This document shows, in pieces, positions 1 through 60,435 of a stretch of 64,000 nucleotides of DNA; within the stretch, counting starts at the first letter, position 1, and each line of letters opens with the position of its first letter. The notes beneath the pieces were generated by a model. That model did no database searches, had not been told where the DNA came from, and saw only the letters and a program-made list of their open reading frames with translations. The stretch lies in NCBI RefSeq assembly GCF_000002425.4, contig NC_037261.1:5349553-5413552 (forward strand), in the 5' to 3' direction. The position numbers and the translations under genes are program-made. The stretch is from Physcomitrium patens (taxonomy: Eukaryota; Streptophyta; Bryopsida; Funariales; Funariaceae).

Positions 1-839
1 GCAATGATAAGACCATCACAATGATAGAGATATATGGTGATAGGTCCCATAGTCATAGTTCCATAGTTATAGGATCTATTATATGATTAAGAATATTAAA
101 AAAAATAAAAAACGTATTGTCCAGATTTTGTAACTATCAAGTTTAGAAGCGCCCTCCAAGTGCATATAGAGTCCAAATTTGATTATTTTTTACTCAATTT
201 TATGTAAAAGAGACCTAAAGAATTTATTAGCATATTCATTTTTTAAAATAGATGTCATTTAGAGCATTGAAGTAGCATTAATAAATACCAATTGCTTTTT
301 AAGTAAGTTTTTGATTTTTTCTCACTTCTATATATTTCATTTTATTGTAATTATCTTTTACTATCATATATTTTTTGATTTATAACCATCAATTGTAGGT
401 AGATACCAGCTGCTCTAGTTTACTTTTGATTTTCACTTATGTATTGTCGAGGATGAAGATCTATTATAGATTTTTAGATTTTATTTTTTGTATCTTTTCT
501 TAATTGTGGATATTATTTCTGAAAGTTTTTCATTATTATCCTATTTTGTATTTGTTTTAATTTTTATTGATAGGCATATTGTATGAATGATTTTGAATTG
601 ATGGCTGATAAAATCCTTTTGTTTGTAGATATATTGAATTTGTAGTAATCCGGAGGTGATTACTAGAGAATTACAAAGTTTGGTAGTTTTTGCAAACATA
701 GATTGTTCCTTTAGCCTTTAGATAGTTGCAAGTAAAAAAATAGTCCTTTTATGGTGCATACTAGGAGCCAATATTATTGATTTCCTTCATTAGACTACTT
801 GGATAGTGATTACATCAAGGACTTTGGACCAAGGATGTA
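1..839. other. Unassigned AT-rich sequence, left edge
   Basis: There is no open frame of note and no LTR terminus that I can pair with another copy. It may contain the upstream leader or LTR of the degenerate gypsy element that follows, but no second copy of this sequence is in the window to test that. Confidence 0.4.
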
Positions 840-889
840 TACTAATTAGGTTTTTTAGCCTATTTCAGCATTAGATACCACTTGGAGGC

Positions 890-1780
890 TTTGGATCTTG
901 GAGGTGGATACATTTTATGAAATAGAAGATAATCTTCATAACATGATGAAGGATAGATTTTCAAGAAGAGTTAAGGACATTTCTTTGCTAGATTGGAAAC
1001 TTAGGTTTTAAACATGGATGAAAGAGAAGCATCAAAGGTCTTCCACTTTCAATGAGTGGTATGTCTTTGAGCTCTTACTACAATACTTAGAATACAAGGT
1101 ACTCCAAATCTATGAAAAATGGAATAAAGAATACTTACTTGAATTGTATGAAATAAGATGTTATTGAGAAGTACACATAGAGCTTATTTCAGCTCTTAAA
1201 GAGGATGTTATTTCAAGCTTTATGCCTATAGTGAAAAAAAAGATCCAATCCAAGGAGAAGTTGGTACACCTTCAGAAGATATTAAAGAAAAATGAGTAGC
1301 TTCTTCTTTAATCAACACTTCAACTACTTTATCTTGCATGGCTCAAACAATGAAGGCAACTTTATTTCTAATGGGAGAGCCACCATCATTTGAACTTCTT
1401 TAAATGTTTATTAAGTACTTAGAGTACAATTATCGAGATTTTAGACATGATCAAATGCAATGTATTCAAGATTTTTTTCATAAAAAAGAATATGCTCTAT
1501 GTACCATGTATACTTCTTTGGCTCAGTTTGCAATAGAATCAAGAGGTGTGTTTGTTGAGAGTCAACTTATTAAGATTTTTTTATCTAAGATTGAAAAAAG
1601 ATTCTTTGATTTAGTCATATGAAGAATTATTCTCAACTATGACAACAAGATCACATTGATACAAGTATTTATTAAAGTTGAAAAATGTGATAAGACACTT
1701 GTTAATATAATATCATTGACATAATAGCTTGCATGACGGATATATCAAAATCCAAGAAGATGGAAACTACCACAAGTAGC
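890..1780 (+). pseudogene. Gag-like region of element D
   Basis: Translated in pieces, this stretch gives a hydrophilic, helix-rich protein with Trp- and Tyr-containing segments such as FNEWYVFELLLQYLEYKV, as expected for a retrotransposon capsid region. It lies directly upstream of the zinc-knuckle segment. Several frames must be joined and stops are present, including in the piece at 1404-1622. Assignment as gag rests mainly on position; the sequence alone is too decayed to name a family. Confidence 0.5.
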
Positions 1781-1806
1781 TTAACAAAATCAAACCTAAA
1801 AAAACT

Positions 1807-2025
1807 ATGCATTGTTGGAGGTGTGGTGAATCAAAATACATAAAGAATGATTCCAATTGTCCGAAAAAGAAGAAAGCCTTATATATAGAAAAATCTAAGC
1901 TAAAAGCTGAGATAATTAAAGTTGAAAATAAATTTAAAAAGAAGCAATTGAAATATTCTTATTGTGGTAAGCTTAAGCTTAACCACAATGAACTTAATTG
2001 CTTCATATTACATCCACATACATAG
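1807..2025 (+). pseudogene. Nucleocapsid zinc-knuckle segment of element D
   Basis: This open frame of 72 codons begins with CWRCGESKYIKNDSNCPKKK, a retroviral-type knuckle (C-x2-C at residues 3 and 6, last Cys at 16) followed by a lysine run. The expected His appears to be Tyr (residue 11), so metal binding is probably lost. A second Cys/His cluster, YCGKLKLNHNELNC, follows near the C-terminus. Such knuckles bind the element RNA during particle assembly. It sits between the gag-like and protease-like regions, which is the normal order. Confidence 0.65.
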
Positions 2026-2829
2026 TCCACCTTAGATAAAAAAAAAAAAAACCGTAGAAGCTAAAATTACTGAATTAGAGAAAAAAAATTCAATAATGTG
2101 GCTTCATTAGACAAAGTCATTGGATGTCATGTGGCTTTTAGAAGTGGAACAAATTCTTCTTCTCCAAAATATTATATATTTGGTGTATCAAGACAAATAG
2201 TAGTTGCAACTGCTATATGTGCCCAAATAATAGCTAAGAATATGACACCTATAATAAGTGGGGTACTATAATCCTTGTCTAGCATTCAAGCATTGTGAAG
2301 ATGCTAATATCCATATACAATTGCTTTTATCATTTAGCCTTGTGGATATTAATAGCCTAGCAAAGCCTTTTATTTTAACTTAAATATAAGATAAAGCTAC
2401 TAATATTAAAAACACAATACGTACTTTAGCTTATAAAATATTAAATATGCCTATATTTTCCAATGTTAACTTATTGACTTCAAAATTTAAATCAACAAGG
2501 ATTTTTTAATTGGCTAGTAAAATGATGGAAGGTAAAGTATCTATGTCATTATTAGAGGGGGCTCAAGCAATAACAAAGCCTTCAACATAAGAGGATTTAG
2601 CTAAGTTATAAGTAAAACTTACAACTAAAGCTATTGCCATATTTGATGAAAGTGACTTAAAGGCCAAAATATAAATCCTTCAAGTGAGATACCATTGGCT
2701 ATAGAGATGGCATTTCTATCTAATATTATAGCTAGATTTGCCTAAAAATATCAAAATTTATACCTAAAAATTATACAATTAATTAATAACAATAATGTGC
2801 TAATTGATAGCCATACTGATCACAATACT

Positions 2830-3250
2830 ATTTGTACTATATCTTTGCATGTTATGGTAGATTTTGGAACTTAGCTAGTTATAATTGATAAGCAATTTCT
2901 TTAAGAATTAGATTTTATTCCTATAGATTTAAAACTTTTTTTTTTTTACCATTATTATTTTAGTAGGAGGTATAGAGCAAGCTATTGGCTATACCAAACA
3001 ACCTTTGCAATTAATATTTTGCACTAGATCTAGTTCACTTTATTCATACTTATTGTTAAAGTCCACAGTGATTAATGCCACCAACTATGATATTTTAGTA
3101 CGTCAACATGTTCTTTAACAATTTAATTTTGGCCTAGATAATTAGATTAAAGAAGCATAGATTTAACCTAGATGATCTACTAGTGATGGAAAAAAAGAAT
3201 TTCAATCATATTTGTAGCCACTACTATGATTATGTCAGCAAAATCTTTAT
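2830..3250 (+). pseudogene. Aspartic protease-like region of element D
   Basis: The segment LHVMVDFGT (about 2848-2874) resembles the D-[ST]-G active-site loop of retroviral aspartic proteases, with Phe where Ser or Thr is expected. About 200 bases on, NATNYDILVRQHVL matches the second conserved part of gypsy proteases (Y-D-x-L-[LI]-G/R followed by a hydrophobic stretch). Stops are present. Position between the zinc knuckle and the methyltransferase fits. Confidence 0.5.
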
Positions 3251-3364
3251 TTGGTTGTAATGCATTGGCATCTGATTTGTGTTGTAAAGTTTTTCTATTA
3301 GAAGAAAATTTAATATTTATATCTTATTCTATACGACCATTTAATCTACCATTTTTAGAAGATC

Positions 3365-4450
3365 ATGCAAAATACAAGAAGGATCCATCTCCTCTATGCA
3401 AAACTTTTTTGCCAATATGAAGACATTATATCTTCATTGGATATATTGAAGATATTAAAATTATCTTTCTTATCTAGCTTTGTTCAACCTATTCATTGGC
3501 ATCCACTAAATGAGGATATTATCCTTGTGGAACTCTTTGCAAGCATTAATACAAGTTTGATAGTAGTATTAGAGGCTGGGCTTATTATTCAATAGTACAT
3601 CTACATGAATACTAGAATTACATCTAATCGAGCAGCTCGACATTATCTCTAAAGATTATTGATTATGTATTCTAAATAATTATAATTTCTTACTATTTTT
3701 GGTTATTTTAGCCAACTCTTTTATGATGTCATTCTTATTAGTCACGAGAATTTGAGGAGATTAGGCCACATAGATTTATTGATTGATAGATGGCCTTGTC
3801 AAGGTCATTCACATATTAGAATAGATCATGGATTACATGATCTTCAATCCAATTTATTTACAGATTTAATGTATCTTAATCAATGGTAATTTATGCATCA
3901 AATTATACCACTTGTGTAATATTTTTGAAATGTACTACCATTGGATGAAATTCAAATCCAAGTGTTGGAGGATTATCAATATATTAAATAATTCCTTAGT
4001 CTTCCAACCTTTTCTGATGGTGCGGCTTTGGACTTCTATACCCATTGACTTTATTTGATTTAGATTAACTTGGCATTATCTCACGTGATTACAAAAGTAC
4101 TTTTTAGAATTAAATGACCTCTTAGATGCTATATAAATGATATCTTAGATGATAATAAAATTTCTTTAGTTGTCACTAAGGCTAATGAATCTCTTCTTGT
4201 CTTGGTTTATAAGATGGAAGTATCTTGTGGCATATTTCCTATATTTGTGACATTTCTAGTATCTTTTGTATTTTGAGTACATGGATCTAATATAATTTAG
4301 AATGTCAATTTAAAAATCTATGAAGAATATAATATCAATGAAAGGGAGCATATTATAGGCTTTTTAATTGACATCACAATTGCTTATGATCTTACTGAAG
4401 AATAATGTAATTTTTTCCTAGGCCATGCTATGGACCTCAATACTTTAATA
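3365..4450 (+). pseudogene. Cytosine-C5 DNA methyltransferase domain inside gypsy element D
   Basis: Four hallmark motifs of C5-cytosine methyltransferases occur in the right order and all in one reading frame over about 920 bases. Motif I (S-adenosylmethionine binding): LVELFASINTSLIVVLEAG, from 3527 (family pattern ELFAGIGG). Motif IV: DLLIDRWPCQGHS, with the catalytic Pro-Cys-Gln at 3794-3802. Motif VI (ENV): the codons at 3926-3934 read stop-Asn-Val followed by LPLDE, so Glu has become TGA. Motifs IX/X: EREHIIGFLIDIT (from 4340) and FLGHAMDLNTL (about 4415-4447). Known biochemistry: the motif IV Cys attacks C6 of cytosine and the ENV Glu assists. Stops at about 3593 and 3649 and later ones make this copy non-functional. 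It follows the protease region and precedes the reverse transcriptase. A host methyltransferase pseudogene is less likely because the domain is embedded between gypsy domains. Confidence 0.72.
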
Positions 4451-5690
4451 TGATTTTTTAGCATATGTCTTACTATTCAAAAGTATTTTCATTACCATAT
4501 TAATATTTTGAGGTTAAAAAACAATGGTCAAGGGGCAATGGATCCTGAACTTACTAGGATTGAAGAATCCAAGTTATTTCTTTGTTTACAAAGGCATATA
4601 ATAGATGAGCTACAAGCTAAAGCTGACTTTGTATTTTGGGCTAAAGACTTAGTAAAAACTAATGCTCAAGAGACTCTCTCATAAGATTTGTTTTTAAAAG
4701 ATAATCCATATTCTATCAACAATTGTAATTCACATAAATACTGTAGTAATGAAGTTCCTTAGTTGATTAGAAATAAAAATGTAGGAGGCATAAGAGTTGT
4801 TTTTTTAATAGATTAGCAATTAAATGCATGCTAATATGTAGTAGGGTTCTATTGGTGAAGAAAGAGACCACAAAATTTCATGATTGACTATTGAAATTAA
4901 GGCCATATCTTATTGATGTTGAAGCATAAATGATATAAGCTTTTATCTACTTGTATTGCAAATATTTTGCCTTTAGTCTTCAAGATCTTAAAGGCAATAA
5001 AAGCAAACCTATTCACATTCAATTAGAAGATGATCATCCAATATTTTGACAACTTTGCAAGTTTAATGCCTCAAAAAAAGCTAGTGTTCAAGTCCATTGC
5101 TATGAATTATTGGCTATAAGCTTGATTGAGCTTTCTAATAGTGAATATGCTTGTGCTACAATCATGCCTTTGAAAAAAGATATTTTTGATAATTGGATAA
5201 AGAAACGGATGTGTAGAGACTATCATCTAATTAATCATAAGACTAAGTTTTATAAATATTCAAAGCTAATGCCAAAAGAATAATTTGATGCAATAGGATT
5301 TTCTGAAGTATTCAGGTATTTTAGATTTAAGATCTAGTTATTACCAATTACTATTACTTATTGAAGCTTGGATGAAGACAACATTTTGGAGAGTCAATGA
5401 AGATGAATAAGATCAACTTTATCATTGGAAGTTCTTTCTATTTGATCTTAAGAATGCACCAGTTGAATTTCAATGGGTGATGGATAAAGTTTTATCTAGC
5501 TTATCATTTACTAGATGCTACATTGATGATGTTATTATTTTTAATAGCACGCCATAAGTTTATGTGACACATTTATAAGTTATTTTTAAGCAATTATGGC
5601 AATAGAAATTATGCTTGTATCATGAAAAGTGTAAATTCTTTCATAAATAATTACCATAGTTAAGACATGATTATCCTAAGATGTCTCGGT
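4451..5690 (+). pseudogene. Reverse transcriptase region of gypsy element D
   Basis: After a decayed linker come typical gypsy reverse transcriptase blocks. MPLKKDIFDNWIKKRMCRDY (about 5165-5223) corresponds to the block with the lysine-rich loop and the CxDYR motif. FLFDLKNAPVEFQWVMDKVL (about 5436-5500) is the FGLKNAP-type block, and CYIDDVIIFN (about 5518-5547) is the palm Y-I-D-D catalytic motif with both Asp residues kept. HEKCKFFHK (about 5621-5647) is the post-catalytic block. Frames shift several times and stops occur. RNase H and integrase do not follow, since the element is cut by copia B1 at about 5727. Confidence 0.75.
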
Positions 5691-5726
5691 GTATAATAAT
5701 TTTGTAGTACATGTTGCTACACTACT

Positions 5727-7054
5727 TAAAAATAAGGCCTTTTGTTGTTTGCTTTATATGCATCCTTCCTATGCAAGTTGTATTGATTTTGGCTTATTTT
5801 GCTTAGATCTAAGCTACTTACTATAGACTTAAGCTTTGCCATGCTCTTCACATTTAAATAGATAAGACAACAATGCCATACATTCAACTAATCTTGATTT
5901 GATGTGAATTCAGCAAATGTAGTTGTTTCGACTCTATTGATTGTTTTACATTTGAAGTAATACAAATTTTCTACTCTAAAGTCCTTGGCAACCATGTTTC
6001 TATAAAAAAAATTCACAAAACATCCATTCATATTGAATTGAACTATAAAACCCTCCATTACAAGCTTACTCACTAAAAGTAGGTTTTGCTTCATCTTAGG
6101 CATATGGACAATATTTTTGAATATGATCCTATTGATTTATTCATTCACAACCACCTCCACTATAATAAAACCAATTTCAATGGCTTTACATGTACTACTA
6201 TTTGCCAAAATCACATTTGACATTGAAATAGCCTCATAAGTATCAAATAAATATTTATAAGATGTCATATGCTTAGAATAACTTGAGTCTATAATCTATC
6301 TTGACATGGTAGCTATGGAAGTACTATTTATTATGGTGAATACATAATCTTATCCTCCAAAATCATCTTGCACACTATTTGTATTCTTCTTTTTTATCTT
6401 TTTGCCTTTGTAGTAATTTTGAAGAAAATATCCTACTTTGCTATAAATGAAACAAGTTTTAATATTATCTCATTGATTTGAATAATTGCACTTACCTTGT
6501 CATGAATAGAGTGTTGAATCTTTACTTCAAGATTCTTTTTTTTCCTTCTTGATCACTTCATGGCTAAATCTTGTTGTCACATAGTCTATTGTGAGATCTT
6601 TTATCTTGATGGATTTGAAAACCACAATGATGTTGTTGTAGGATTTTTGCAAACTCATGAGTATAGTCATGTTAACATTTGCATCTTCTAATGACGTATT
6701 TATAGTTGTAAGTTGGTTTGTAAGTGCCTTCACTTTGTAATGTGAACCATGAGGTCTTCACCCTCTTCCATCTTACAAGTAAAAAAAACTTTCTCCTTGT
6801 ATAAATGATGTTGGATAAGTTCTTCCTCTTATAGATGTTATAAAGAAACTTCTATGTTTTTATTAGATCATTTCAAGAAATAATGTGGGAGAAGTTGGCT
6901 TCATCAACATTACATATAATCAATCCAAAAGCCTTCTTTTCATGATGTTTTTAGTCCTTCTTCTTATTTATATCAGCATGCATACTTACAGGCTCTTCAC
7001 TTGCATCTATAATAGTTCAAAGATCCAAAGAAGCTAATAAATGCTCTATTTTTG
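5727..7054 (-). pseudogene. Copia B1, part 1: gag-protease to GAG-pre-integrase remnant
   Basis: Minus-strand Tnt1-94-like copia sequence parallel to 11730-13049 of copy B2. Recognisable pieces are the start of gag (leucine-rich, near 7040, start codon decayed), the gag region at 6527-6733 (TNQLTTINTSLED), and the pre-integrase region at 5888-6103 (MPKMKQNLLLVSKLVMEGF). It ends abruptly at about 5727 against gypsy D, so integrase, reverse transcriptase and RNase H are missing. Its upstream side is interrupted at 7054 by element B3. The leader and 5' LTR resume at 19280. Many stops; dead. Confidence 0.75.
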
Positions 7055-7055
7055 T

Positions 7056-7358
7056 TGAAAAAATAGAACTTTGAAGTCACAACATATAGCATTAGTAAGA
7101 TTGTATACAAAGAGAGTATGGAGTAAGATATCTCTCACTTCCAACACCCAATACTTATAGATTGTGGTTGCTACCCTACAAGATAACTTCGACTCATTGA
7201 CTTTTATACATAAGATCTTTGGTCCTAAGATCCTTTGGTATCTAATGTATCTCAAGGGTATCCTATGGTCCTTGGATCCTTTGGCATCTTAGTAACCACA
7301 AATGTATTGTATGTCAAACACTAATTACTCTTACAAAGTTTATGGATATTCTCTAGTT
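7056..7358 (-). repeat. 3' LTR of copia B3, first segment
   Basis: Parallel to 18812-19114 of the 5' LTR of B3, ending at the insertion point of solo LTR E1. It includes the segments describing tatctctcac-ttccaacacc and the repeated ccttggatcctttggcatc tract seen in both LTRs. The remaining part of this LTR continues at 8707-8710 and 13967-14125. Confidence 0.85.
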
Positions 7359-8701
7359 TGTGAGTCATCAAATTGAGTCACTAGTTGTTTTAGGACAAAA
7401 GAATGCATTTAGAGTGCCAAAATTACAATTATTAGATAAATATATGCTTAGAAGATGTTAAAGAAAGAAGAATAGTATTAGTAGAGAAGAAATGGAGTCT
7501 TAGTAAGTCTTGGAGGCAATTATTTTAGTTGATTTAGTATTTTTACTTATTATTAAGGAATAAGGATTAGTTACTAAAATCAATATTTATATTGATCTTA
7601 TATCTATATGTATTACTTATATAAAAACTATAAATGTTAGTTAGTAGTTGAAAGAAGTATGAAAAAGAACCTCATGTCTTTTTAGTTATTTATATAGAAA
7701 GTAGAATTTATAGTAGATTTAAATTGATTCCATTACTATAAAAAAATTAATAATATAAGAAATTATATCCTTAAATTGCTATTAGTATTATAGAAATATT
7801 ATAGGAATTTTTAGAATTTATTTAGAAATTATTTAGAATTTTTAGTAGATTCAAATTGATTTTAATCACTATAAAAAATCATTAATATATGGAATTATAT
7901 CTTTAAATGGATATTAGAATTATAGAAATATTATAAGAATTTTTAGAATTTATTTAGAATTTATTTAGAATTTTCTATGAATTTTTAGGATAATTTTCAA
8001 GACCTTGGTAAAATTGAGTTTTACCACTTGGGGAGCCATTATGAAGAAATGGAGTAAGGTTTGGAGACCATTTAGTGTTTCTAGGCTAATTGGGTGTTTT
8101 TAAACACCATGGTGAAGTCAAAAATTGAAAAATATTAATTCTACTAGTAGAAAATAGGAGGACCAGCAGCTAGTATAGTCCTTGTAAGAAGAGAGATGCA
8201 CAAGTCTCATATGGGTTGTAGCACCTTGGATGTAGGTAGGAAGATAAGACTAAGGCCTCAAGGCCTCTTTAGAAAATCTATATACACTACATGTTAGCCT
8301 TGGTGAGGTTCGAAACCTTGATCTATTAACAAATTATCCTTGAGGTAAAATATTTTCACTTAACTTTCTATTTATTACTTGTTATTTTCAATCCTTCATA
8401 ACTTACTTAAAATAATTCGGATTTACATGTTTTTTACGTCATTGAAAAGATAAAAAAATTACCTTCCTAAAAATATACTTTTTACTTTTATTTTTTATTT
8501 TTTACTTGGTGAGAATCCAGTGAACGGATTGTGATTCGTTTTGTAGTGTACAATTGCTTGATTACACTTGTTTCACTTGTTTTGTGTTATTCTTCTTTAG
8601 TTTTGTTGTTTGTTACTTCTACTTCGCACCACCCATTACAAGCAACTCTTAATTGAGGCCATCTTGTAATTTGAATTGAGAGGTGGAATTTTTCACTCAC
8701 A
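7359..8701 (+). mobile_element. Solo LTR E1 (1343 bp)
   Basis: Starts TGTGAGTCATC and ends ACTCACA, with a perfect 5-bp target-site duplication tagtt at 7354-7358 and 8702-8706. It is homologous along its length to E2 (26709-27908). It has no coding capacity. The strand is arbitrary, as no internal region is present. A solo LTR arises when the two LTRs of an element recombine and remove the interior. It interrupts the 3' LTR of B3 only a few bases from where B2 also inserted. The family of the parent element is unknown. Confidence 0.9.
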
Positions 8702-8711
8702 TAGTTCTTAT

Positions 8712-9020
8712 TGAAGAAACTCAATAAGCAAGACACAAGTAAGTAGAAATCAGCAAGGTTAGATACAAGAGAAGTGTGGAATGAGATACCTCTCACTTCC
8801 AACACCCTTTACTTATAGGTAGAGGTTACATCTATTTTGGCTAGTATTCATCTTACTTTCATCCAACTAAACCCTAGATTCTTCTTAACCTTATCGCCAC
8901 TTTAAACCCTAGCCGCCACCTTGATAACTTTCTTTCATCTTTTTGCTGCCCTTTGACTATTAGCAACTTATCTAAGATAATATCTTTTACCTTCTAACTT
9001 ATCCTCTATTTACTTTAATA
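8712..9020 (-). repeat. 3' LTR of copia B2 (309 bp)
   Basis: On the minus strand it begins at 9020 as TATTAAAGTAAATAG (TG changed to TA) and ends at 8712 with TTTCTTCA. It pairs with 13613-13959. It lacks about 38 bases present in the 5' LTR, which holds an extra run of GCCGCCACTT-like repeats near 13800-13860. Confidence 0.88.
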
Positions 9021-9032
9021 CTCCCTCTTTGC
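9021..9032 (-). promoter_or_regulatory. Polypurine tract of copia B2
   Basis: On the minus strand the bases just before the 3' LTR read AGCAAAGAGGGAG, a purine run in the expected place to prime plus-strand DNA synthesis. The equivalent tract of B3 (gcaaagtgggag) is at 14126-14137. Confidence 0.75.
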
Positions 9033-9805
9033 TATTGGTCAAAGGCTAATAAACCTAATCTCTTTGTCAATTTGTAATGTCTATCCTTCACTACTGCTTT
9101 TGTGAATAAATCAGCAAGCATGTCTTCCATTGCACAATATTTCATATCAATTACTCCCATCTCAATCTTCTCCCATATGAAGTGATGTTGAATGTCAATG
9201 TGCTTTGTCCTTGAATGATGCTTTGGATTCTTAGCAAAAGCAAGGCATCTTTGATTGTCACACTTTATTGGAGTTGCTTCCAATTGCACAAGTCCAATGT
9301 CTTCTATAACTTGTCTTAGCCATATTGCCTCCATTGCACCATGACTTGCTGCTATGTATTCTGCATCCATTGTAGACCTTGTAATTATTGGTTGTCTCTT
9401 ACAATTCCATGAAATTGCTCCCACTCCAATAAAGAATACATATCCCATCGTTGATCTTCTATCATTTGTATTTCCAGTCCAATCCGCATCACAATATCCA
9501 TGCAATGTAATACTATCACCTCTAAGATACAATTTGAAGTTCAAAGTGCCTTTTAAGTACCTCAAGGTCCTCTTAATGGTTGTCCAATGAATTGGTCCAA
9601 CTTTTGACATGTGTTGACTCACAACATTCATAGCATATGGAAGATCCATCCTTGTACCAACCATTGCATACATAAGTGAACCTACTACTGCCTTGTATGG
9701 AACATCTTTCATTTCTTCTTCAACTTCAATAAATTTCTCATCCGTGAGCTTCATCAACTTCAAATTTGCCTCCAAATGTGTTCTAATGGACTTGCACTCC
9801 TCCAT
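9032..9805 (-). CDS. Copia B2 RNase H and end of reverse transcriptase (257 codons)
   Basis: This open frame covers the C-terminal end of the reverse transcriptase (VPYKAVVGSLMYAMVGTR, residues 35-52) and the RNase H domain. RNase H active-site residues are visible: CDADW (Asp106), MDAEY (Glu149) and KCDNQ (Asp183). The C-terminal KNPKHHSRTKHIDIQHHFI block (residues 194-212) is the standard copia ending and lies just before the polypurine tract. RNase H removes the RNA strand after reverse transcription. It is the best preserved piece of B2 and was once part of one long polyprotein, so its first Met is not a real start. Confidence 0.9.
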   Translation of the reverse strand: MEECKSIRTHLEANLKLMKLTDEKFIEVEEEMKDVPYKAVVGSLMYAMVGTRMDLPYAMNVVSQHMSKVGPIHWTTIKRTLRYLKGTLNFKLYLRGDSITLHGYCDADWTGNTNDRRSTMGYVFFIGVGAISWNCKRQPIITRSTMDAEYIAASHGAMEAIWLRQVIEDIGLVQLEATPIKCDNQRCLAFAKNPKHHSRTKHIDIQHHFIWEKIEMGVIDMKYCAMEDMLADLFTKAVVKDRHYKLTKRLGLLAFDQ

Positions 9806-10657
9806 GTTGAATCATTTCAACACTTCTTCAATGTACTTCTTTTGGCTCAATGTAATAATCTTCTTAGCTCGATTTCTTACAAATTCCACTCCTAAGCAAT
9901 AGTGGAGCTCTCTCAAATCATTCATTTCAAATTCTTTTGCTAACTTTGCCTTAAATCAATCCATCTTTTTCAAAGTATTGGTCAAAATGATCAAATCATC
10001 AACATAAAGAATGAAAATTAGTAAGAAGGCTTTTAATTGCATCACATACATGGAATGATCAGTCTCACTCCTCACAAATCCTTCATTCACAAAGAAAGTG
10101 TTGATACGTTGGTACCATGCCCTTGATGATTGCTTAAGCCTATATAAGGATTTCTTTAACTTACACACAAGGTGTTGTTTGCCTTCTTCAATAAATCCTT
10201 GAGGTTAATCTATGTAGATGTCTTCTTCCAATGCTCCATTCAAGAAAGCCGTCTTCACATCCATTTAGTACATCTCCAAGTCCATTGCTGTCCCAATTGC
10301 CACAATGGTTCTAATGGTAGTGAATTTGGCCACGGGAGCAAATGTCTCATTAAAATCAACACTAGCAACTTGTGAGTAGCCTTTAGCAACCAATCTTGCC
10401 TTATATCTCACAATATTGCCCATTGCAACCCTTTTGGTTCTAAATACCCACTTACAACCAATTGAATCTCGATTTGGTAGAAGTTGAATCAATTTCCATG
10501 TTCCATTGTCCATGAGTGATTTGTACTCTTTTTCTATAGCATTCTCTCACTTCATAGCATCCGTGGACTTCATTGCATCACATAAACTCAACGGATCAGT
10601 AAGAAGTGCAACATTGATATATTCTTTACTTACTTGAGGAAAAATATGGTCCTTCTA
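9806..10657 (-). pseudogene. Copia B2 reverse transcriptase, broken
   Basis: Two readable pieces. 10265-10513 carries GCKWVFRTKR, VRYKARLVAKGYSQV and the DFNETFAPVAKFTTIRT block of the fingers and palm. 9956-10168 carries KLKKSLYRLKQSSRAWY and the catalytic LYVDDLIIL (YVDD at residues 55-58). Between and after them are single stops, for instance where an MDVKTAFLNG block follows a TAA. Part of the same polyprotein as the flanking RNase H and integrase. Confidence 0.88.
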
Positions 10658-32433: not shown

Positions 32434-32513
32434 CGCAATCATAAAATGAGGAATATGGCGATTAAAGGACATAGCATGTTGAAAAACGAATTTGTCCAGC
32501 CACAGTAGGGACC

Positions 32514-33176
32514 ATGTGGCTAGAACCTTATACAATACCTAGTAAAGGTCTTACATTCTCCTCAGAACCCTCTCCATATTTTACGATAAATATTATTCTA
32601 GGACCTAAACATCTCAAAGCCTTTGCCTTACTAGATTCAGGAGCCTCAGCATGTTTCTTAGATGAAAAATTTGCTAAAAGATATAGCATATTTTTAGTAA
32701 AGAAAACTAAATCTGTTCATGTAGAAGTCATAGATGGTCGTCTGTTGTCTTCAAGAGATGTTACTTATGAAACCTTTCCTATAGAAATAGCAACTAATGG
32801 TCATAGTAGCTTTGTAATATTTAATATCATTAGATCTCTTTCTAATCCAGTCATTTTAAGTTTATCATGGCTAAAAAAATATAATCCTAAAATAGATTGG
32901 ACTTCTCGTAGTCTTAACTTTTTTAAAAGTATAACTAAGAGCATAGTTAATCAAGTAAAAAGTCATAAGTCTAGTATAATTAAACCTATATTTATAGGTG
33001 CAAGAACTTTCTTGCATGCTACAAAAGAAGGATCACATTGTGTCATTTATGCCACACTTGTTTCTACTAGTAAAAAGACTTCAAATGGTATTTCAAGCCA
33101 ATATCAAGATTTTCAAGATGTATTTGAGAAGAACAATATGAATATTCTTCCAGAACATCGTTCCTATGACTGCTGA
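32514..33176 (+). CDS. Aspartic protease region of gypsy A1 (220 codons)
   Basis: Open frame with the active-site loop FALLDSGASACFLDE (Asp41-Ser-Gly), followed by HVEVIDGRLLSSRDV and the second conserved strand region IRSLSNPVILSLSWLKKYNPKIDW. It ends at TGA/TAG just before the reverse transcriptase (DC-stop-IDL). The enzyme cuts the Gag-Pol polyprotein. It lies within what was a continuous pol frame, so the first Met is not a native start. Confidence 0.88.
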   Translation: MWLEPYTIPSKGLTFSSEPSPYFTINIILGPKHLKAFALLDSGASACFLDEKFAKRYSIFLVKKTKSVHVEVIDGRLLSSRDVTYETFPIEIATNGHSSFVIFNIIRSLSNPVILSLSWLKKYNPKIDWTSRSLNFFKSITKSIVNQVKSHKSSIIKPIFIGARTFLHATKEGSHCVIYATLVSTSKKTSNGISSQYQDFQDVFEKNNMNILPEHRSYDC

Positions 33177-33560
33177 ATTGACCTGCAAGAATGAACACAA
33201 TTACCATTTGGACCAATCTATAATTTATCTCAAAATGATTTAGCTGAAGTCAAGGAATATATTGAAGAGAATTTGGCCAAGAACTTCATATGCCATTCCA
33301 AATCTCTAGCAAGAGCTCCAATTTTATTTCTAAAGAAAAAAGATGGATCATTGCGGATGTGTGTTGATTATCGAGGACTCAACAAAATCACTATCAAAAA
33401 CAAATACCCGCTACTTTTAATATCTGGACTTCTTCATTAGTTGAATCAAGCTAAGATCTATATAAAAATAGATCTATGGGGAGCATACAATTTGGTATGC
33501 ATCAAAAAAAGAGATGCATTGAAGACTATTTTTCTAACAAGGTATGGACATTTTGAATAC
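33177..33560 (+). pseudogene. Reverse transcriptase N-terminal half of gypsy A1
   Basis: Reads [20 protein letters not shown], then [20 protein letters not shown] and [16 protein letters not shown], the fingers blocks of gypsy reverse transcriptase. It stops at GHFEYNV, where the sequence jumps into RNase H (TNGNR). The palm with the YVDD motif is deleted. Confidence 0.88.
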
Positions 33561-34026
33561 AACGTCACAAATGGGAACAGATGATAAACTTCACTCAATA
33601 GCTTTTTATTCCAAAAAATTTTCAGTAGCCAAGATGAACTACAAGATCCATGACAAAGAACTTCTTGCAATCATGGATTTGTTTTAAGTATGGCGCCATT
33701 ATCTAGAAAATGCTTCTAATTGAGTCACAGTGTATATGGATAACAAGAACCTTGAATATTTTATGTTAACACGTGTTTTGAATCATAGCTAAGCCCGTTG
33801 GAGTATGTCTTTGTTAAGATTCAAATTCAAGATTACTTATCGACCAAGAAAATAATAAGGTTTGTCAGATGCACTCTCTAGACGATCTTATCTTTCAGCA
33901 AAGGAGGAAGATGCTACTTTTGATCAACAATGAATAATTCTCTTGAAGCTAGAGCATCTTCATCTTCAAGCAATGAAATCAATACTAACTGTTGATTCAA
34001 CTTTTATTAAGCAAGTTTAGTCAAGT
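33561..34026 (+). pseudogene. RNase H and connection remnant of gypsy A1
   Basis: Matches A2 53440-53010. Frames read [20 protein letters not shown]-like, NKNLEYFML, and RFKFKITYRPRK-like pieces with stops. Only the distal part of RNase H remains because of the deletion. Confidence 0.8.
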
Positions 34027-35080
34027 ATGTCTTCTGATCCTCTTATTCATGATATGAAGAGAAATCCTTCAAAGTCGTATGATACTTCCAAGTTTGAATT
34101 CAAGAAGAATCTACTATATTTTGAGGGACGCCTATATGTCCCAGAAGATGAAGCTCGATTATGTATTCTTCAAGCTCGTCATGACTTTCCAACAGTAGGA
34201 CATTTTGGATACAATAAAACTTTGGAACTAATATCCAAGGACTTTTGGTGGCTACAAATGTGGAAATCAGTCAAAGATTTTGTACAATCTTGTAATGTTT
34301 GCTCAAGATCAAAAAATCCTCGTCATCAATCTTAAGGACTTTTTCAGCCATTATCTATTTCAGAACAACCATAGTCTTCTATTTCTATGGATTTCATCAC
34401 GAATCTTCCAATCTCAAGTTCTTATGACTCTATATTCATAATAGTAGATCATTTTACCAAGATGGCACATTTTGTACCATGTACAAAATCTATCACAGGT
34501 GAAGAAACAGCTAAGCTCTTTCTTAACAATATCTATCGCTATCACAGATTATCCAAGGATATTATATCAGATAGGGGAACTCAATTTGTATCAAGATTTT
34601 GGTGGACTCTTTTCAAGATTCTAAAAGTGGATATAAAACTATCTTCGGCATTCCATCTTCAAACTGATGGACAAACGGAGCGTATTAATCAAGTTTTGGA
34701 GCAGTACTTAAGATGTATCATTAACTATCAATAAGATGATTGGACAATTCTTTTGTCATTGGCAGAGTTTGCTTACAATAACATAGTACATTCTTCTACA
34801 AAACAAATACCTTTCTTTGCTAATTATGGTTATCATCCATGACTTGATACTTTTGACTTTTCAAAAGTTGATAATCCTGCTGTGAAAGATTTGGCAATTC
34901 ATTTGTCAAAGCTACATGCAACAATGAAGGTGCCATCAAAAGAAGCTCAAGAACAACAAAAGATCAATGCGGATGTCTATCGAAAGGAACAACCACCATT
35001 CCACATGGGTGATAAGATATGGTTACTTCGTCACAATATCAAGACCACTCGTCCTTGTGACAAGTTGGACTATTGAAGGC
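34027..35080 (+). pseudogene. Integrase of gypsy A1
   Basis: The zinc-binding region has His52, His59, Cys89 and Cys92 in the frame at 34027-34335. The core frame at 34387-34734 shows MDFITNLP (Asp2), SDRGTQF (Asp62) and QTDGQTERINQ (Glu98), the exact D-D-35-E spacing. A TAA closes the zinc-binding frame (34333) and TAG stops lie before and after the core. 34882-35076 covers RKEQPPFHMGDKIWLLRHNI and DKLDY, the GPF/Y-type C-terminal module. Catalytic residues are all present, but the frame is broken. Confidence 0.9.
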
Positions 35081-51577: not shown

Positions 51578-52006
51578 TCATCTTGATTTTGATGGATGTC
51601 GTCGATGAAAAGCCTCCACCGCCTTTGCTGCATTTACAAGATTCTTTATTAGCTCCCATGTGCGTTCACTAATACCATATCCGCGCCAATGGATAAGATA
51701 TTCTAATTTATTTCGACGTTGCCTTGAATCTAGGACTTCTTCTACTTCAAACTCTTCATTATTGTCTACTTCTATAGGAGGAGGTGGAGCTTGTCGTCTT
51801 CTTGGTATGTCCACTGTCTTATATGGTTCAAGAAGAGACACGTGGAATATTGGATGGATTTTCATTAACTCCGGTAGATGTAAACGATGTGCAACTGGAT
51901 TGATTTGTGCAGAAATAGAAAATGGTCCCAGCCTTCGATAGTCCAACTTGTCACAAGGACGAGTGGTCTTGATATTGCGACGAAGTAGCCATACCTTATC
52001 ACCCAA
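51578..52006 (-). CDS. Integrase C-terminus and chromodomain of gypsy A2 (142 codons)
   Basis: GDKVWLLRRNIKTTRPCDKL then DYRRLGPFSI, the GPF module; SLLEPYKTVDIPRRRQAPPP, an acidic spacer, and the chromodomain at residues 86-137 (FEVEEVLDSRQRRNKLEYLI then HWRGYGISERTW). The stop at 51578 is the natural pol end. An intact copy of the chromatin-targeting module. Confidence 0.92.
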   Translation of the reverse strand: MGDKVWLLRRNIKTTRPCDKLDYRRLGPFSISAQINPVAHRLHLPELMKIHPIFHVSLLEPYKTVDIPRRRQAPPPPIEVDNNEEFEVEEVLDSRQRRNKLEYLIHWRGYGISERTWELIKNLVNAAKAVEAFHRRHPSKSR

Positions 52007-52102
52007 GATGAATGATGGTTGTTCCTTTCGATAGACATCTGCATTAACCTTTTGTTGTTCCTGAGCCTCTTTTAACTACGCCTTCATCGTTGCATGTAGC
52101 TC

Positions 52103-53137
52103 TCATAAATGAATTGCCAAATCTTTCGCAGCAGGATTATCAACTTTTGAAAAGTCAAAAGTATCAAGTCGTGGATGATAACCATAATTAGCAAAGAAAG
52201 ATGTTTGTTTTGTAGAAGAATGTACCGTGTTATTGTAAGCAAACTCTACCAATGGCAAAAGAGTTGTCCAATCATCTTGTTGGTAATTAATGGTACATCT
52301 TAAATATTGTTCCAAAACTTGATTAACACGCTCCATTTTTCCATCAGTTTAAGGATGGAATGCCAAAGATAGTTTTATATCTACTTTAAGAATCTTGAAA
52401 AGAGTCCGCCAAAATCTTAATACAAATTGAGTTCCCCTATGTGATATAATATCCTTGGGTAATCCATGATAGCGATAGATATTGTCAAGAAAGAGCTGAG
52501 CTGTTTCTTCACCTGTGATAGATTTTGTACATGGTATAAAATGTGCCATCTTGGTAAAATGATCTACTATCACGAATATAGAGTCATAAGAACCTGAGAT
52601 TGGAAGATCCGTGATGAAGTCTATAGAAACAGAAGACCATGGTTGTTCTGGAATGGATAATGGCTGAAAAAGTCCAAAAGGTCGATGACGAGGAGTTTTC
52701 AATCTTGAGCAAACATCACATGATTGTACAAAATCTTTAACTGCTTTCCACATTTGAGGCCACCAAAAATCCTTAGATATCAGCTCTTAAGTCTTATTAT
52801 ATCCAAAAAGTCCTGCTTCTGGGAAGTCGTGACGAGCTTGAAGAACACGTAAACGTGCTTCTCTTTCTGGAACATATAGGCGTCCTTCGAAATAGAGTAG
52901 GTTGTTCTTGAATTCAAATTTAGATAGATCATGAGATTTAGAAGAATTATTCTTGATATCATGAACAAGAGGATCTGAAGACATACTTAACTGGACTTGC
53001 TTAAGAAACTTTAAATCAACAGTCAATGTTGATTTTATTGCTCGAAGATGAAATTCCTCCGGCTTCAAGAAAACTGTTCTTTGTTGCTCAAAAGCTGCAT
53101 CTCCTTCTTTTGGTGCAAGATAAGAACGTCTAGACAA
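52103..53137 (-). pseudogene. Integrase of gypsy A2
   Basis: 52787-53137 covers the segment up to GYNKT, and 52349-52753 covers VQSCDVCSRLKTPRHRPFGL through the core. Asp is kept in SIDFITDLP, but the second catalytic Asp is His (IISHRGTQF). A single TAA interrupts at 52349 (HP[14 protein letters not shown]); the Glu is kept in the frame 52103-52336. TAA also splits the zinc-binding region near 52786. Thus catalysis is lost by substitution as well as by stops. Confidence 0.9.
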
Positions 53138-53155
53138 GGCATCGGATAAACCTTG

Positions 53156-53908
53156 TTATTTTTCTGGCCGATAAGTGATGATGAACTCGAATCTTGATAA
53201 AGACATGCTCCAACGAGCTTGAGGACGATTTAATATGCGTGTTGACATAAAATATTTGAGGTTCTTTTGATCCGTATACATGGTGACTGGACTAAAAGCG
53301 CCTTTTAGATAATGACGCCATTCTTGAAAAGAATCCACAATTGCAAGAAGTTCTTTATCGTAGATCTCATAATTGATTTCTGCTACTGAGAATTTTCTTG
53401 AATGAAAGGCTATTGGATGAAGTTTGTCATTTGTTCCCATTTGTGATAAAACCGCACCCAGAGCAAAGTCCAATGCATCTGTTTCTATAAAGAATGCTTT
53501 GGAAAATTCAACACGATATAAGATTGGTGCAGACACAAACGCTGTCTTTAAAGATTCAAAAGTAACTTCCGCTTCCTGATTCCATTGGAGTTTTTCTTTA
53601 CAAGTCAAACGTGTAAGTAGAGCTGCAATTCGAGAGAAGTCTTTAATGAAGATGCGATAGTAGTTGGCAAATCCCAAAAAACATTGGACATCTCTTACCG
53701 TTTTTGGGATCTTCCAATCTATAATAGTTTGAACTTTCTTAGGATCCATCATAAGTCCATCATTTGAAATGATATAATCTAAGAAATCGACTTGAGTAGT
53801 GTAGAATACACACTTTTCTATCTTGACATAGAGTCCTGCATCTCTTAATTTTTGTAACACACGACGAACATGAAGTTCATGTTCTTCTGGATTCTTAGAA
53901 TAGATCAA
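53156..53908 (-). CDS. Reverse transcriptase thumb and RNase H of gypsy A2 (250 codons)
   Basis: MIYSKNPEEHELHVRRVLQK follows directly after where the YVDD motif would stand. Then VQCFLGFANYYRIFIKDFSR (thumb/connection) and RNase H with FFIETDALDFALGAVLSQ (catalytic Asp), INYEIYDKELLAIVDSFQEW (Glu) and TDQKNLKYFMS (Asp). Open to 53156, then a TAA at the LTYRPEK-type end. The 5' part is cut at 53912 by A7. Confidence 0.92.
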   Translation of the reverse strand: MIYSKNPEEHELHVRRVLQKLRDAGLYVKIEKCVFYTTQVDFLDYIISNDGLMMDPKKVQTIIDWKIPKTVRDVQCFLGFANYYRIFIKDFSRIAALLTRLTCKEKLQWNQEAEVTFESLKTAFVSAPILYRVEFSKAFFIETDALDFALGAVLSQMGTNDKLHPIAFHSRKFSVAEINYEIYDKELLAIVDSFQEWRHYLKGAFSPVTMYTDQKNLKYFMSTRILNRPQARWSMSLSRFEFIITYRPEK

Positions 53909-53912
53909 GATG

Positions 53913-54239
53913 TGTCACGGCTATAATCATGTAAGCTAATAATTACATATACAAATAGGTAGAAGTAAATAAAAGTAAGTAAAATTAAGTTAATTCTATA
54001 ATATTTAATATGAAAGCTTCTTAGAAGCTTACTAGATGCTGCTTTGACTTCATAGGTGTCTTTAATTGACTTTTTGGATTAGAAACATGGTCAACAAGTT
54101 GGCCATGTGCCACACATGTTGTTAGCTTGAAGATCAAGCCAACTATGTGGCCCACACATAGAAAAACTTGCCTTATAAGTCAAGGCATGTGTCCTACAAA
54201 GTCAACACATATTGGAGGTCCTATAGAACGTCGCCATAT
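53913..54239 (+). repeat. LTR of gypsy A7, first part (plus strand)
   Basis: Starts TGTCACGGCTATAATC, plus orientation, head-to-head with A2. Five bases before it are agatg. After 327 bp, at GAACGTCGCCATAT, it is broken by the LTR of F. The rest must lie beyond the window. Confidence 0.88.
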
Positions 54240-55723: not shown

Positions 55724-56808
55724 AACCTGTGCATCCTCCGGTATGCACCAATTTATCCAATTGCTGTTTGATTTAGAATATATTCTCTACATCTTTGTCT
55801 AGTTCGTCTTCATCACCTTCATTATCCAAATCACTTTCAATCTCTTGCAGCGGAATCTCTGTACCTTCATTAAGGTCTTCCATATTCATCTCCGCATGTC
55901 TTCGTTTAAATATTTTTATTCGCTTCCTTGCAAATTGGTATTTTCAATTTTGTACCATCTAACTCCCGTAATGAGTAAGTCGCATTATCATGAACAGTTG
56001 TTACTACATATGGTCCAAACCAACGTTTTGAAAATTCCCGCAAAGTACTATGTTGATTATCCAGACTATTATCATAAACAAGTACCCAGTCACCTTCCTC
56101 GATTGCTTTAGGTCTCAATCGATGTTGCTTATCAAATCGCACCTTATTTTGTAACCTTCCTCTTTTTAACCTTCTCAATGCTATCTGGACATCTTCCGTT
56201 CTTTGCTCCAATTGTCCAATCCTAATAGCCAAAAGTCCTTCTCTTGTCAATCCATCTTTCCATGGTAGCATACTCCAAGTAAGTACCTTTTCTTCAATCG
56301 GCATAATTGGTTTTCGACCTGTCATAAGTTCTACTGGCATATATCCTATCACCGAACTATGTGTTGTTCGATCAGCCCATAATGCAAATGACAAAAGCCG
56401 TGGCCATTCTTTAACTTTTTCATTACAAGCTTTAACTAATGCTTTCACAATCGGTGGGTGACCGCATTCGCTTTTTGCATTCCCTTCCGGATTATAAGCA
56501 GTAGTCAGTGATAGTTTAACTCCACATCTTTCAAAGAACTTACAAGCTTCTTGTGCATTTAATTCTCCATGATCTGCAGTGATTTTTCCTACGCATCTGT
56601 AGCGGCAAATGACATCTTCAAGCAAAAACCTACAAATCCCCTCTGTAGATTTTGTCCTCAATGCTCTTCCTTCTACTTGATTAGATAAATCTTCACGAGC
56701 TAAAACCAAATATCTCATCTGCCATAATCCAACCGGCATAATAACCAAATCAACAACCTATTTAAAATGAATAGCCAGAGGATACGTAGGATGAAGACCA
56801 TCTCGATG
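55724..56808 (-). pseudogene. Integrase of gypsy F, first copy
   Basis: Same reading frame as the upstream pol. After TGA (56809-56811) comes DGLHPTYPLAIHFK, then TAG (56758-56760, where Trp is expected), then VVDLVIMP with the first Asp. The open frame 55906-56748 has the second Asp in ITADHGELNAQEACK and the Glu in NAKSECGHPPIVKAL. FALWADRTTHSSVIGYMPVE and EEGDWVLVYDNSLDNQHSTL and RWFGPYVV form the C-terminal module. A frameshift after KEANKNI moves the acidic tail (GTEIPLQEIESDLDNEGDED) to another frame. Chromodomain absent. Confidence 0.88.
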
Positions 56809-58365
56809 TCAGATATTAGAATACGATTGATTGATTTTACATGACTCTACAAATGAGAGCACATCTCGATACATATTTTTCCACCAATATCGTTCCTTGA
56901 GTTTAACAAAAGTAGCCGAGATTCCTCTCTGCCCTGCCCATAAACTATCATGAAACTCCTTTAATAATTTTAGTCTTTCTTCCTTTTCACCTATCACTCG
57001 TTGTGGCATCCCAATTCCTTTCTCTGGTCTCTTCCATAAGAATCCATCTTGAAATAAAAATCCATATGTTTTTTTTCTTATTTGTTTGAATTTTTCTGTA
57101 AACCAATTCCCTTGTTTAGTCAAGGTATTCAAGTAATGACCAATATCCAATAATTCTCCTTCATAAGATACTTCAAGAAATAGCTTGTCTTCCTTGTTGA
57201 GGTTTGATATTGAATAGAATTTCAATCCGACGTCATCAATGTCTTCAACCATTTCGTCCTCCCTCTCGTATCTTGCTCGAGATAGCATGTCTACTACTAA
57301 ATTGTCCTTCCCAATAACATGCTTAAATTCTGGATTTAGTGACTTAATATAAGCAATCCATATCAACATTGCAATATCTGACGTTGAACAGTTAATAATC
57401 ATTCCAAGCAATGGTAAGCAATCTGTTTCAATTACTACTACTATCCCAATCAAATAATCATTTTCAGCTTTCATAGCCGAAACGACTCCCCAAAGTTCTC
57501 TTTTGACTTGCGAATATGCACGCTGACGAATACTTAAAACTTTAGCCCCAAACCAAACTGCAAATCTATTTCCACTGGAATCATCTTGACCCACAGTCCA
57601 TCCAATGGTAATTGGACTAGCGTCCACAGTAAGAATCACAGGTCTATTACACTTATAATCAACCTTCTTCAATATAGGAGGTGACATCAATAATTTCTTT
57701 AATCTTTGCATTGCCTGAATATGCCTTTCTTCCCATTTAAATCGGTAACCCTTGCGTAACAGTTCATATAATGGATCCGCTATGTGAGCAAAATGAAGGA
57801 TCCAGATTCGATAAAATACACATGCATCCAAAAACCTGCGAACCTCTGTTAAAGAATCACAATCCTCTTTCATCCTTCCAATTGCATCAACTTTAATCGA
57901 ATCTGGTTTCCTTCCGTAAGACCCACATAAATGTCCAACAATCACAACCTCTCGTACTCCAAATACGGACTTCATATCCGATAATGTAAGATGAACTTCT
58001 CCAAGCCGAGTTAAAATCTTTTTACAATCTTGTATATGATCAACAACATATTTGCGACACCCCCTCGTATCTAAAGTTTCATCCTTGTCTCCTTTTCTGC
58101 ACCCTTTTATATGAACATCATCCAGAAAAGGCATAGTCTTTTCCGGAATAAAATCTCTCAATACCTTATTCATCCCATTTATCATATGCGCAACTGAGTT
58201 GGTCACGCTTTGAGGAAGAGTGTACATTCTTACCAATCCAAGTGGTGTCCTCATTGTTGTCATATCTCTACTTCCTTCGGTAAGTTGAAATTGATCATAA
58301 CCTGAATACAAGTCACCCATTGAATAGATCGCCCTTCTAGCAAACGCCTCAGCAAATTCATCCAT
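56809..58365 (-). CDS. Reverse transcriptase, RNase H and integrase N-terminus of gypsy F (518 codons)
   Basis: Long open frame. The palm region begins with YSMGDLYSGYDQFQLTEGSR; the catalytic motif is PFLDDVHIKG (FLDD, residues 80-83), a Phe variant of the usual YxDD. RNase H follows with ILTVDASPITIGW (Asp248), KRELWGVVSAMK (Glu) and VVIETDCLPLLGM (Asp). The integrase zinc region reads FHDSLWAGQRG and ESCKINQSY; the second copy has GHRG and ESCEICQSY, so this copy lost a His and a Cys. It runs in the same frame as 58387-59172 with one TGA between. Confidence 0.92.
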   Translation of the reverse strand: MDEFAEAFARRAIYSMGDLYSGYDQFQLTEGSRDMTTMRTPLGLVRMYTLPQSVTNSVAHMINGMNKVLRDFIPEKTMPFLDDVHIKGCRKGDKDETLDTRGCRKYVVDHIQDCKKILTRLGEVHLTLSDMKSVFGVREVVIVGHLCGSYGRKPDSIKVDAIGRMKEDCDSLTEVRRFLDACVFYRIWILHFAHIADPLYELLRKGYRFKWEERHIQAMQRLKKLLMSPPILKKVDYKCNRPVILTVDASPITIGWTVGQDDSSGNRFAVWFGAKVLSIRQRAYSQVKRELWGVVSAMKAENDYLIGIVVVIETDCLPLLGMIINCSTSDIAMLIWIAYIKSLNPEFKHVIGKDNLVVDMLSRARYEREDEMVEDIDDVGLKFYSISNLNKEDKLFLEVSYEGELLDIGHYLNTLTKQGNWFTEKFKQIRKKTYGFLFQDGFLWKRPEKGIGMPQRVIGEKEERLKLLKEFHDSLWAGQRGISATFVKLKERYWWKNMYRDVLSFVESCKINQSYSNI

Positions 58366-58386
58366 AATAGGCCCAATTCCTGCATT

Positions 58387-59172: not shown

Positions 59173-59249
59173 TATACCAATAAAACTCGCATCAAAGGCA
59201 CCTTCATTTCGTGAGAGTATCTCCTCTTTTATACCTCCATAATCTCGCT

Positions 59250-60158: not shown

Positions 60159-60435
60159 TTCTTGTGAAGCTGCCTCTCGAGCCTTCTCTCCTCGAGTTTG
60201 CCTCTTAAAAGAATTTCCTTCTCTAGTATCATCAAAATTTTCTCATCTCTTTTCTTCCATCAAAGCTTCATGTTGGCACTTAGCAATATATGGATGAATT
60301 GAAAGAGACTCAACAGGATCCTCCCAACCTATTCTACCTCGTATTGTAGTTGCAGTCCTCAATAAACGCTTCTCGAGGTAATTTCCCTTCTTGCATTGTA
60401 GAAACGACAGAAGCCCAAAACTCACTAGTTTTCAT
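60159..60435 (-). pseudogene. Gag N-terminal remnant of gypsy F
   Basis: ATG at 60433-60435 directly touches the LTR end. It reads MKTSEFWASVVSTMQEGKLP then REAFIED, and shifts frame to RTATTIRGRIGWEDPVESLS and IHPYIAKCQHEALMEEKR, ending in a stop at about 60243. The gag is short (under 300 codons in all), without a capsid domain that I recognise. An internal deletion next to the LTR is possible. Confidence 0.65.

Follow-up and report, generated by a model that had tools for sequence, protein, structure and literature searches.

A long-dead retrotransposon family of the gypsy (Ty3/gypsy-like) type in the moss Physcomitrium patens once carried a cytosine-C5 DNA methyltransferase (MTase) between its protease (PR) and its reverse transcriptase (RT), and the MTase is a family-wide part of the element, not an accident of one copy. 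One dead copy of this old, high-copy family lies in the 64,000-nucleotide stretch analysed here (contig NC_037261.1, positions 5,349,553 to 5,413,552; hereafter the window, whose own numbering is used below). For one light-harvesting protein encoded in the same genome, the best PDB matches among single-domain chains are 7xqp_a and 8htu_U, both from P. patens. Judged from the sequences and a predicted fold of open-frame relatives, the enzyme is of the DNMT3 class, nearest to DNMT3A and DNMT3B. A gypsy element with a Dnmt3 is already known from Klebsormidium, according to the available part of its description (PMC5890265). What is new is the position of the MTase at the end of the first open reading frame (ORF1, Gag-PR-MTase), the UAG-CAR-YYA stop context after it, and a PHD finger at the end of ORF2 in an open-frame relative, L045. 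On balance it seems probable, though by no means assured, that ORF1 encodes Gag, zinc knuckles, PR and a DNMT3-class MTase, that ORF2 encodes RT, RNase H, integrase and PHD finger and is reached by type I readthrough of the UAG, and that the MTase is packaged and methylates the element's cDNA.

The methyltransferase domain and its recurrence in the genome

The remains of the MTase occupy positions 3500-4504 of the plus strand. A first-pass annotation had described C5-MTase motifs in order and in one frame, and had called the copy dead. Both descriptions hold: frame +2 contains LVELFASINTSLIVVLEAG, PCQ (3794-3802), stop-NV (3926-3934), EREHIIGF and FLGHAMDLNTL, and 15 in-frame stops interrupt the domain. 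Upstream on the same strand are the remains of a gypsy-type aspartic PR (2788-3202, with DFGT at 2860-2871), of which the same region is found in sibling copies and residues 557-636 of L045 ORF1 align at 2963-3202 (51%, tblastn). Downstream, again on the plus strand, are the remains of RT (4855-5668, with YIDD at 5519-5530), the start of an ORF2 that is cut off beyond this point; a piece of these remains matches RVT_1 (E = 2.9e-7), and residues 14-284 of L045 ORF2 align to them at 57-60%.

How secure is the identification of so damaged a domain? Taken alone, with its stops read as X, the window MTase scores E = 0.013 and 15.3 bits against PF00145, under the 22-bit cut-off, and the Pfam check proposed in the first-pass annotation would by itself have failed. 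Two of 16 aligned MTase copies, the window copy included, reach a Pfam E of 0.1, and a profile of the decayed copies found nothing credible among the solved structures of the PDB (best E 0.73, a bacterial receptor). The significance of the assignment comes instead from homologues: the 16-copy MTase profile retrieved four open-frame proteins (P0001-P0004; E 4e-110 to 4e-138), which match PF00145 at about 1e-12, above the cut-off. A PDB sequence search with P0001 is led by DNMT3A and DNMT3B (about 1e-7), with HhaI at about 1e-4. In an AlphaFold2 model of P0001 the means of ten-residue blocks run from 74 to 97, with 28 of the 34 blocks (residues 11-350) at 90 or above; of its 172 PDB fold matches at E 0.001, the 50 listed are DNMT3 entries without exception, with TM scores to the target of up to 0.83. 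In a 34-row MTase alignment P120 and C121 are invariant and E164-N165-V166 is kept in at least 90%, and motifs I to X of the relatives are unrearranged, unlike those of DRM. A DNMT2-, DNMT1- or DRM-like class is not favoured, on the strength of the PDB sequence and fold matches and not of a full DNMT tree.

Might the likeness nevertheless be due to chance, or might a host MTase pseudogene have fallen into a single retrotransposon copy? The low PF00145 score of the window copy alone would suit such an accident, as would the presence in the same genome of real host MTases, one DRM-like (L001) and one DNMT3-like (L003), both classed by eye from their motifs. The recurrence of the PR-MTase-RT architecture refutes it, however, and leaves it scarcely credible. 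A search of the genome with the window MTase, in which 120 of 449 candidates were scored, gave 121 matches at about 118 places (three pairs lie less than 1 kb apart and are perhaps single copies). Among 32 copies chosen by their MTase and viewed with flanks of about 1.5 kb (L007-L038, the window copy being L009), PR, MTase and RT follow one another in 21; within these flanks five are without RT only, four without PR only and two without both. Selection by protease gave 150 PR rows and 144 RT rows, paired where the RT followed the PR within 8 kb and in the same orientation. A partner was present for 69 of the 150 PR rows, and in 34 of these 69 the PR-RT spacing is 2048-2193 nt (2079 nt in L045). 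Spacings under 1700 nt occur in six of the 69. By subtraction, a form free of the MTase is expected near 950-1050 nt, and only one copy (two rows, at 840 and 851 nt) approaches this. Open-frame fusions, of PR with MTase in P0009 and P0010 and of MTase with RT in P0032 and P0070, agree with the element-borne state that the annotation had proposed.

Its expectation that younger, intact copies might exist elsewhere in the genome was not borne out among the scored matches, most candidates being unscored: stops are present in 120 of the 121 matches to the window MTase, the exception being a 137-residue fragment, and in all 99 matches to P0001 (92 of 556 candidates scored). The MTase copies share a mean DNA identity of 73.5% (461 pairs). 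Between copies, the ratio of differences at codon position 3 to the mean of positions 1 and 2 is 0.78 for MTase, 0.83 for PR and 0.86 for RT, whereas between L045 and the copies it is 1.51, 1.75 and 1.92, respectively, values that the GC gap between L045 and the AT-rich copies may inflate, to the detriment of the reading that we favour. A position-3 excess against L045 but not between copies points to past constraint followed by decay. There are thus signs that the MTase was constrained while the element was active and that decay of the copies followed, mostly through apparent C-to-T and G-to-A changes: the copies differ from L045 with an excess of these (direction not polarised), and at 592 of the 808 stops in the three domains L045 has a codon for Arg, Gln or Trp.

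A separate observation concerns a well-preserved piece of the element's protease (59% identical, with one stop). It recurs about every 9 kb at C26:1981385, 1990416 and 1999680 and about every 13 kb at C93:12590, 25731 and 38881 (L049); no other element part was seen in one 8-kb stretch examined.

Open-frame relatives and the position of the methyltransferase

With P0004 as query 51 proteins were obtained (itself included), and with the L045 MTase region 37, most of them without an organism name; the named sources among the 37 include Marchantia polymorpha (P0025, P0067, P0069, P0071 and P0073) and Calypogeia fissa (P0066). A Closterium protein (P0082, 649 aa) matches the L045 MTase region weakly. 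No match named for Klebsormidium nitens occurs among the 4, 51 and 37 hits, most of which are unnamed and come from a search limited by length and word filters. DNMT-bearing retroelements are now extended to liverworts and to the genome of the window, with unbroken relatives also in environmental DNA, and dozens of open-frame relatives are supplied, many of them partial.

L045 itself is a 9285-nt contig (CADCWO010000201.1) filed as a cyanobacterial (Synechococcales) metagenome-assembled genome (MAG); its 127-nt terminal repeat (overlap) suggests a circular assembly. P0002 is filed under an Obscuribacterales MAG as a 'DNA cytosine methyltransferase'. Both bacterial labels are probably the result of eukaryotic contamination, and annotators may be warned that an ORF of such an element stands as a bacterial enzyme. 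ORF1 of L045 matches PF00145 (6.8e-12), and has zinc knuckles recognizable by eye and a Gag that is weak or unmatched in Pfam; its protease reaches E 7.8e-4 against Asp_protease_2, below a cut-off that P0009 and P0010 pass. ORF2 comprises RVT_1, RNase H, Integrase_H2C2 and rve, then PHD. The order Gag-PR-RT-RNase H-integrase occurs in L045 and in L046 (the one sibling examined, collinear with L045 from gag into the PHD region), and only up to RT in the window copy.

The MTase is continuous within one ORF, and intronless, in L045 DNA and in the predicted proteins P0052-P0065. These 14 long proteins represent architecture A, in which Gag, PR and MTase are followed shortly by the end of the ORF: none of them stops more than about 50 residues from the point where L045 ORF1 stops, and three shared tails account for 13 of the 14 (P0058 differs); P0001-P0008 end in a similar way. 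In the window a C-terminal linker closes ORF1 (4505-4813, plus strand, running to ...VGGIRVVFLID ahead of the stop); L045 ORF1 aligns as far as 4750, and P0001-P0003 have similar ends. The placement of the MTase between PR and RT in the first-pass annotation stands, but the domain closes the first ORF and is not inside Pol. Elsewhere the MTase is fused ahead of RT (architecture B: P0032, P0047, P0070 and P0074, and P0069 as annotated) or lies between RNase H and integrase (architecture C), P0075, P0078 and P0081 spanning both sides and P0040, P0043, P0048, P0079 and P0080 having this arrangement in part. Precomputed domains include a PHD finger in six of these eight architecture C proteins, P0048, P0075, P0078 and P0081 among them. 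P0049 is apparently without an MTase, perhaps through deletion or as a chimera.

An MTase tree of 64 rows was built, in which the decayed copies have aberrant composition and long branches were flagged; viral contigs yielded six distant phage MTases only, and these were omitted. A branch (93/94) sets architecture C apart, another (100/99) separates the six named liverwort rows from the remaining groups, and within A the three copies from the window genome group with P0001 (98/90). For the six elements with both domains, pairwise identities of MTase and RT correlate (r = 0.81, with 5 of 720 permutations as high), which, few as the data are, suits a single capture followed by shifts of MTase position. 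A wider reading, offered tentatively and as possible more than probable, is of a bryophyte-wide gypsy clade with DNMT3 within the Gag polyprotein, giving many MTases per particle, and with RT-integrase-PHD as a minority readthrough product; the MTase would have been captured once, in an early streptophyte, and would then have come to occupy three positions (the Gag-PR end, before RT, and between RNase H and integrase), not by independent captures.

The stop between the two reading frames and the PHD finger

In L045, ORF2 continues in the frame of ORF1 after AAG TAG CAA TCA; the window has GAT TAG CAA TTA at 4811-4822, in which the ORF1 stop in its UAG-CAR-YYA context takes up positions 4814-4822 of the plus strand. 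As set out in the available part of PMC3542737, UAG-CAR-YYA is the type I (tobamovirus-type) signal for stop readthrough; TAG CAA TTA of the window is the tobamovirus sequence itself, and TAG CAA TCA of L045 fits the UAG-CAA-UYA of pomoviruses, although here, in contrast to tobamovirus-type readthrough, the process is deduced from sequence alone. No report of readthrough in plant gypsy elements was found in a literature of which coverage was partial, so that the absence is weak. Among 20 aligned copies TAGCARYYA is present in strict form in five, and in 14 if C-to-T and G-to-A decay is allowed; the nine junction nucleotides have a mean identity to L045 of 0.74, as against 0.48 in 161 flanking columns. 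An ORF2 fragment at L051:4118-5306 (G000:C19:280617-281805), 78-81% identical to L045 over the first 200 residues, has a start that all but coincides with the TAG CAA TCA junction; it is a younger fragment, with no MTase in the 9.9 kb examined. The first 116 codons of L045 ORF2 contain no ATG, and the window remains match its residues 14-166 at 58% identity, so ordinary initiation at the first ATG (residue 117) would lose more than 100 conserved residues.

Several observations weigh against readthrough, or against the packaging that it would imply. Six of the 20 copies do not fit TAGCARYYA even with decay allowed; the 20 share ancestry and so are not 20 independent tests; and the junction is not the best-conserved 9-mer, windows 47-63 nt downstream reaching 0.82. 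The Pfam RT match starts at residue 128, after the ATG at residue 117, and initiation at that ATG could therefore still yield most of an RT. In some relatives MTase and RT share one frame (P0032, P0070 and P0074) and in others the MTase lies between RNase H and integrase (P0075, P0078 and P0081), so that Gag stoichiometry cannot be general. Self-comparison of L046 and of window positions 1-10000 gave no pair of long terminal repeats (LTRs). Some of these points would be expected if the MTase were real and element-borne but the UAG were not a recoding site, ORF2 being expressed through splicing or internal initiation, or the UAG being simply the end of ORF1, with no special Gag stoichiometry. 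That the stop is no longer TAG in three of the 20 copies, and that some relatives have no stop at the MTase-RT junction, would both be in keeping with this. We nevertheless consider it rather unlikely, because the two ORFs of L045 share a frame and only TAG CAA TCA parts them, because ORF1 ends alike in P0052-P0065 and P0001-P0008, and because a start at residue 117 would discard a conserved stretch.

The PHD finger that ends ORF2 of L045 matches PF00628 at E 4.3e-10, and its nearest solved counterparts include CHD4, PHF12, UHRF1 and KDM5. A search of the window genome with the integrase-PHD part of L045 gave 99 rows, of which 46 extend over the PHD portion. MTase rows and integrase/PHD rows within 8 kb of each other make 25 pairs (24 and 23 distinct rows), with the integrase downstream and on the same strand in all 25 and on the opposite strand in none. 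Chromoviruses, gypsy elements in which a chromodomain follows the integrase, likewise have a chromatin-reading domain at the integrase C-terminus; in the present element a PHD finger replaces the chromodomain. No PHD finger in gypsy elements was found in the literature, parts of PMC3286476 and PMC5408684 included, a partial coverage that makes the absence weak.

Known elements, possible roles and other features of the window

The first-pass annotation had mentioned MTases borne by retrotransposons of charophytes and dinoflagellates, and this precedent is real: DNMT-bearing retroelements of dinoflagellates and of a single charophyte were reported in 2018, their benefit to the element being unclear, as stated in the part of PMC5890265 available to us, to which the following comparisons are also confined. 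The nearest is KnitGypsy-Dnmt3 of Klebsormidium nitens (de Mendoza et al., 2018; PMC5890265), for which conserved key residues and purifying selection were reported. This LTR element resembles the present one in being of gypsy type, in coming from a streptophyte and in having a Dnmt3-class MTase, not rearranged, fused to its proteins. Its MTase is inside the Pol polyprotein ORF, however, whereas here it closes the Gag-PR ORF before UAG-CAR-YYA; it has a DIRS-like repeat structure and fewer copies than are found in Symbiodinium, while the window genome has the 121 scored matches, 120 of them with stops; and, compared by description only, it comes without mention, in that part of the source, of the PHD finger or readthrough stop that are both found here. 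SymbioDIRS-Dnmt3 and SymbioLINE-Dnmt of Symbiodinium are likewise DNMT-bearing, but belong to DIRS (tyrosine recombinase) and LINE elements and not to Ty3/gypsy; the DIRS-borne Dnmt3 was shown to methylate CG de novo. For mosses and liverworts, no element with a DNMT was found in the literature beyond PMC5890265 and its citation in PMC12344493, with parts of PMC9033089, PMC12477816, PMC7466625 and PMC11105155 included, and with such partial coverage the absence is weak. The streptophyte elements are termed Copia in PMC12344493 and Gypsy in PMC5890265, as far as those texts were available; in the available part of PMC12477816, the enzyme described in an algal DNA transposon is a different one, an N4/N6-type DNA methyltransferase.

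What might the element gain? In the reading that we favour, the MTase would be translated together with Gag as the end of ORF1, packaged into particles in Gag amounts and freed by the protease, and would methylate the element's cDNA by the time of integration. Through its PHD finger the integrase may pick chromatin by histone H3 state, and a pre-set CG mark may shield the new copy or keep it quiet in a methylated niche. Self-methylation of cDNA was proposed in PMC5890265 (part available), and the present arrangement would put a cDNA-methylating enzyme of that type inside the particle. A tie to Gag, not Pol, suggests both a dose and a place of action (in the particle, on cDNA), and the MTase is paired with a PHD finger on the integrase; if all this is true, the element carries a writer of DNA methylation and a reader of histones to its own integration.

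The enzyme might, on the other hand, act on the host, methylating host DNA or rival elements (and so silencing competitors or marking insertion sites), or limiting the element so as to spare the host. Effects on chromatin at insertion sites and a slowed, host-sparing transposition are discussed in the available part of PMC5890265, and the unpolarised C-to-T and G-to-A excess against L045 fits the decay of methylated DNA; such decay is, however, expected from host methylation alone, and we consider action on the host unlikely. Less probable by far is methylation of RNA (the element genome or the tRNA primer) and not DNA. This was offered, in the same part of PMC5890265, for a DNMT carried by a LINE, which had failed on DNA when tried in yeast, but the present MTase is nearest in fold and sequence to DNMT3A and DNMT3B, which are DNA enzymes. 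Marchantia, which is genetically tractable, encodes the open-frame relatives P0025 and P0067, making a parasite's use of a host-type silencing enzyme testable.

The window copy includes gag remains on the plus strand (748-2001, opening with MVHTRSQYY-stop at about 754), to which Gag/ORF1 of L045 aligns by tblastn at 748-1215 (49%), 1329-1700 (47%) and 1780-2250 (34%). Two zinc-knuckle-like stretches at about 1813-2001, on the same strand, were read by eye from the translation and not sought in Pfam. For the remainder of ORF2, nothing of comparable identity occurs elsewhere in the window, where the only matches are at 23-28%. RT breaks off near 5690, and the opposite strand from 5690 to 8000 resembles, by eye, the decayed gag, CCHC knuckle included, of a Copia-type element, possibly a nested insertion. 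Remains of other retrotransposons, among them some that keep long open frames, lie at 32475-35046, 51578-53914, 55906-60242 and 62101-63777; where matched, they are distant from L045 ORF2 (23-28%).
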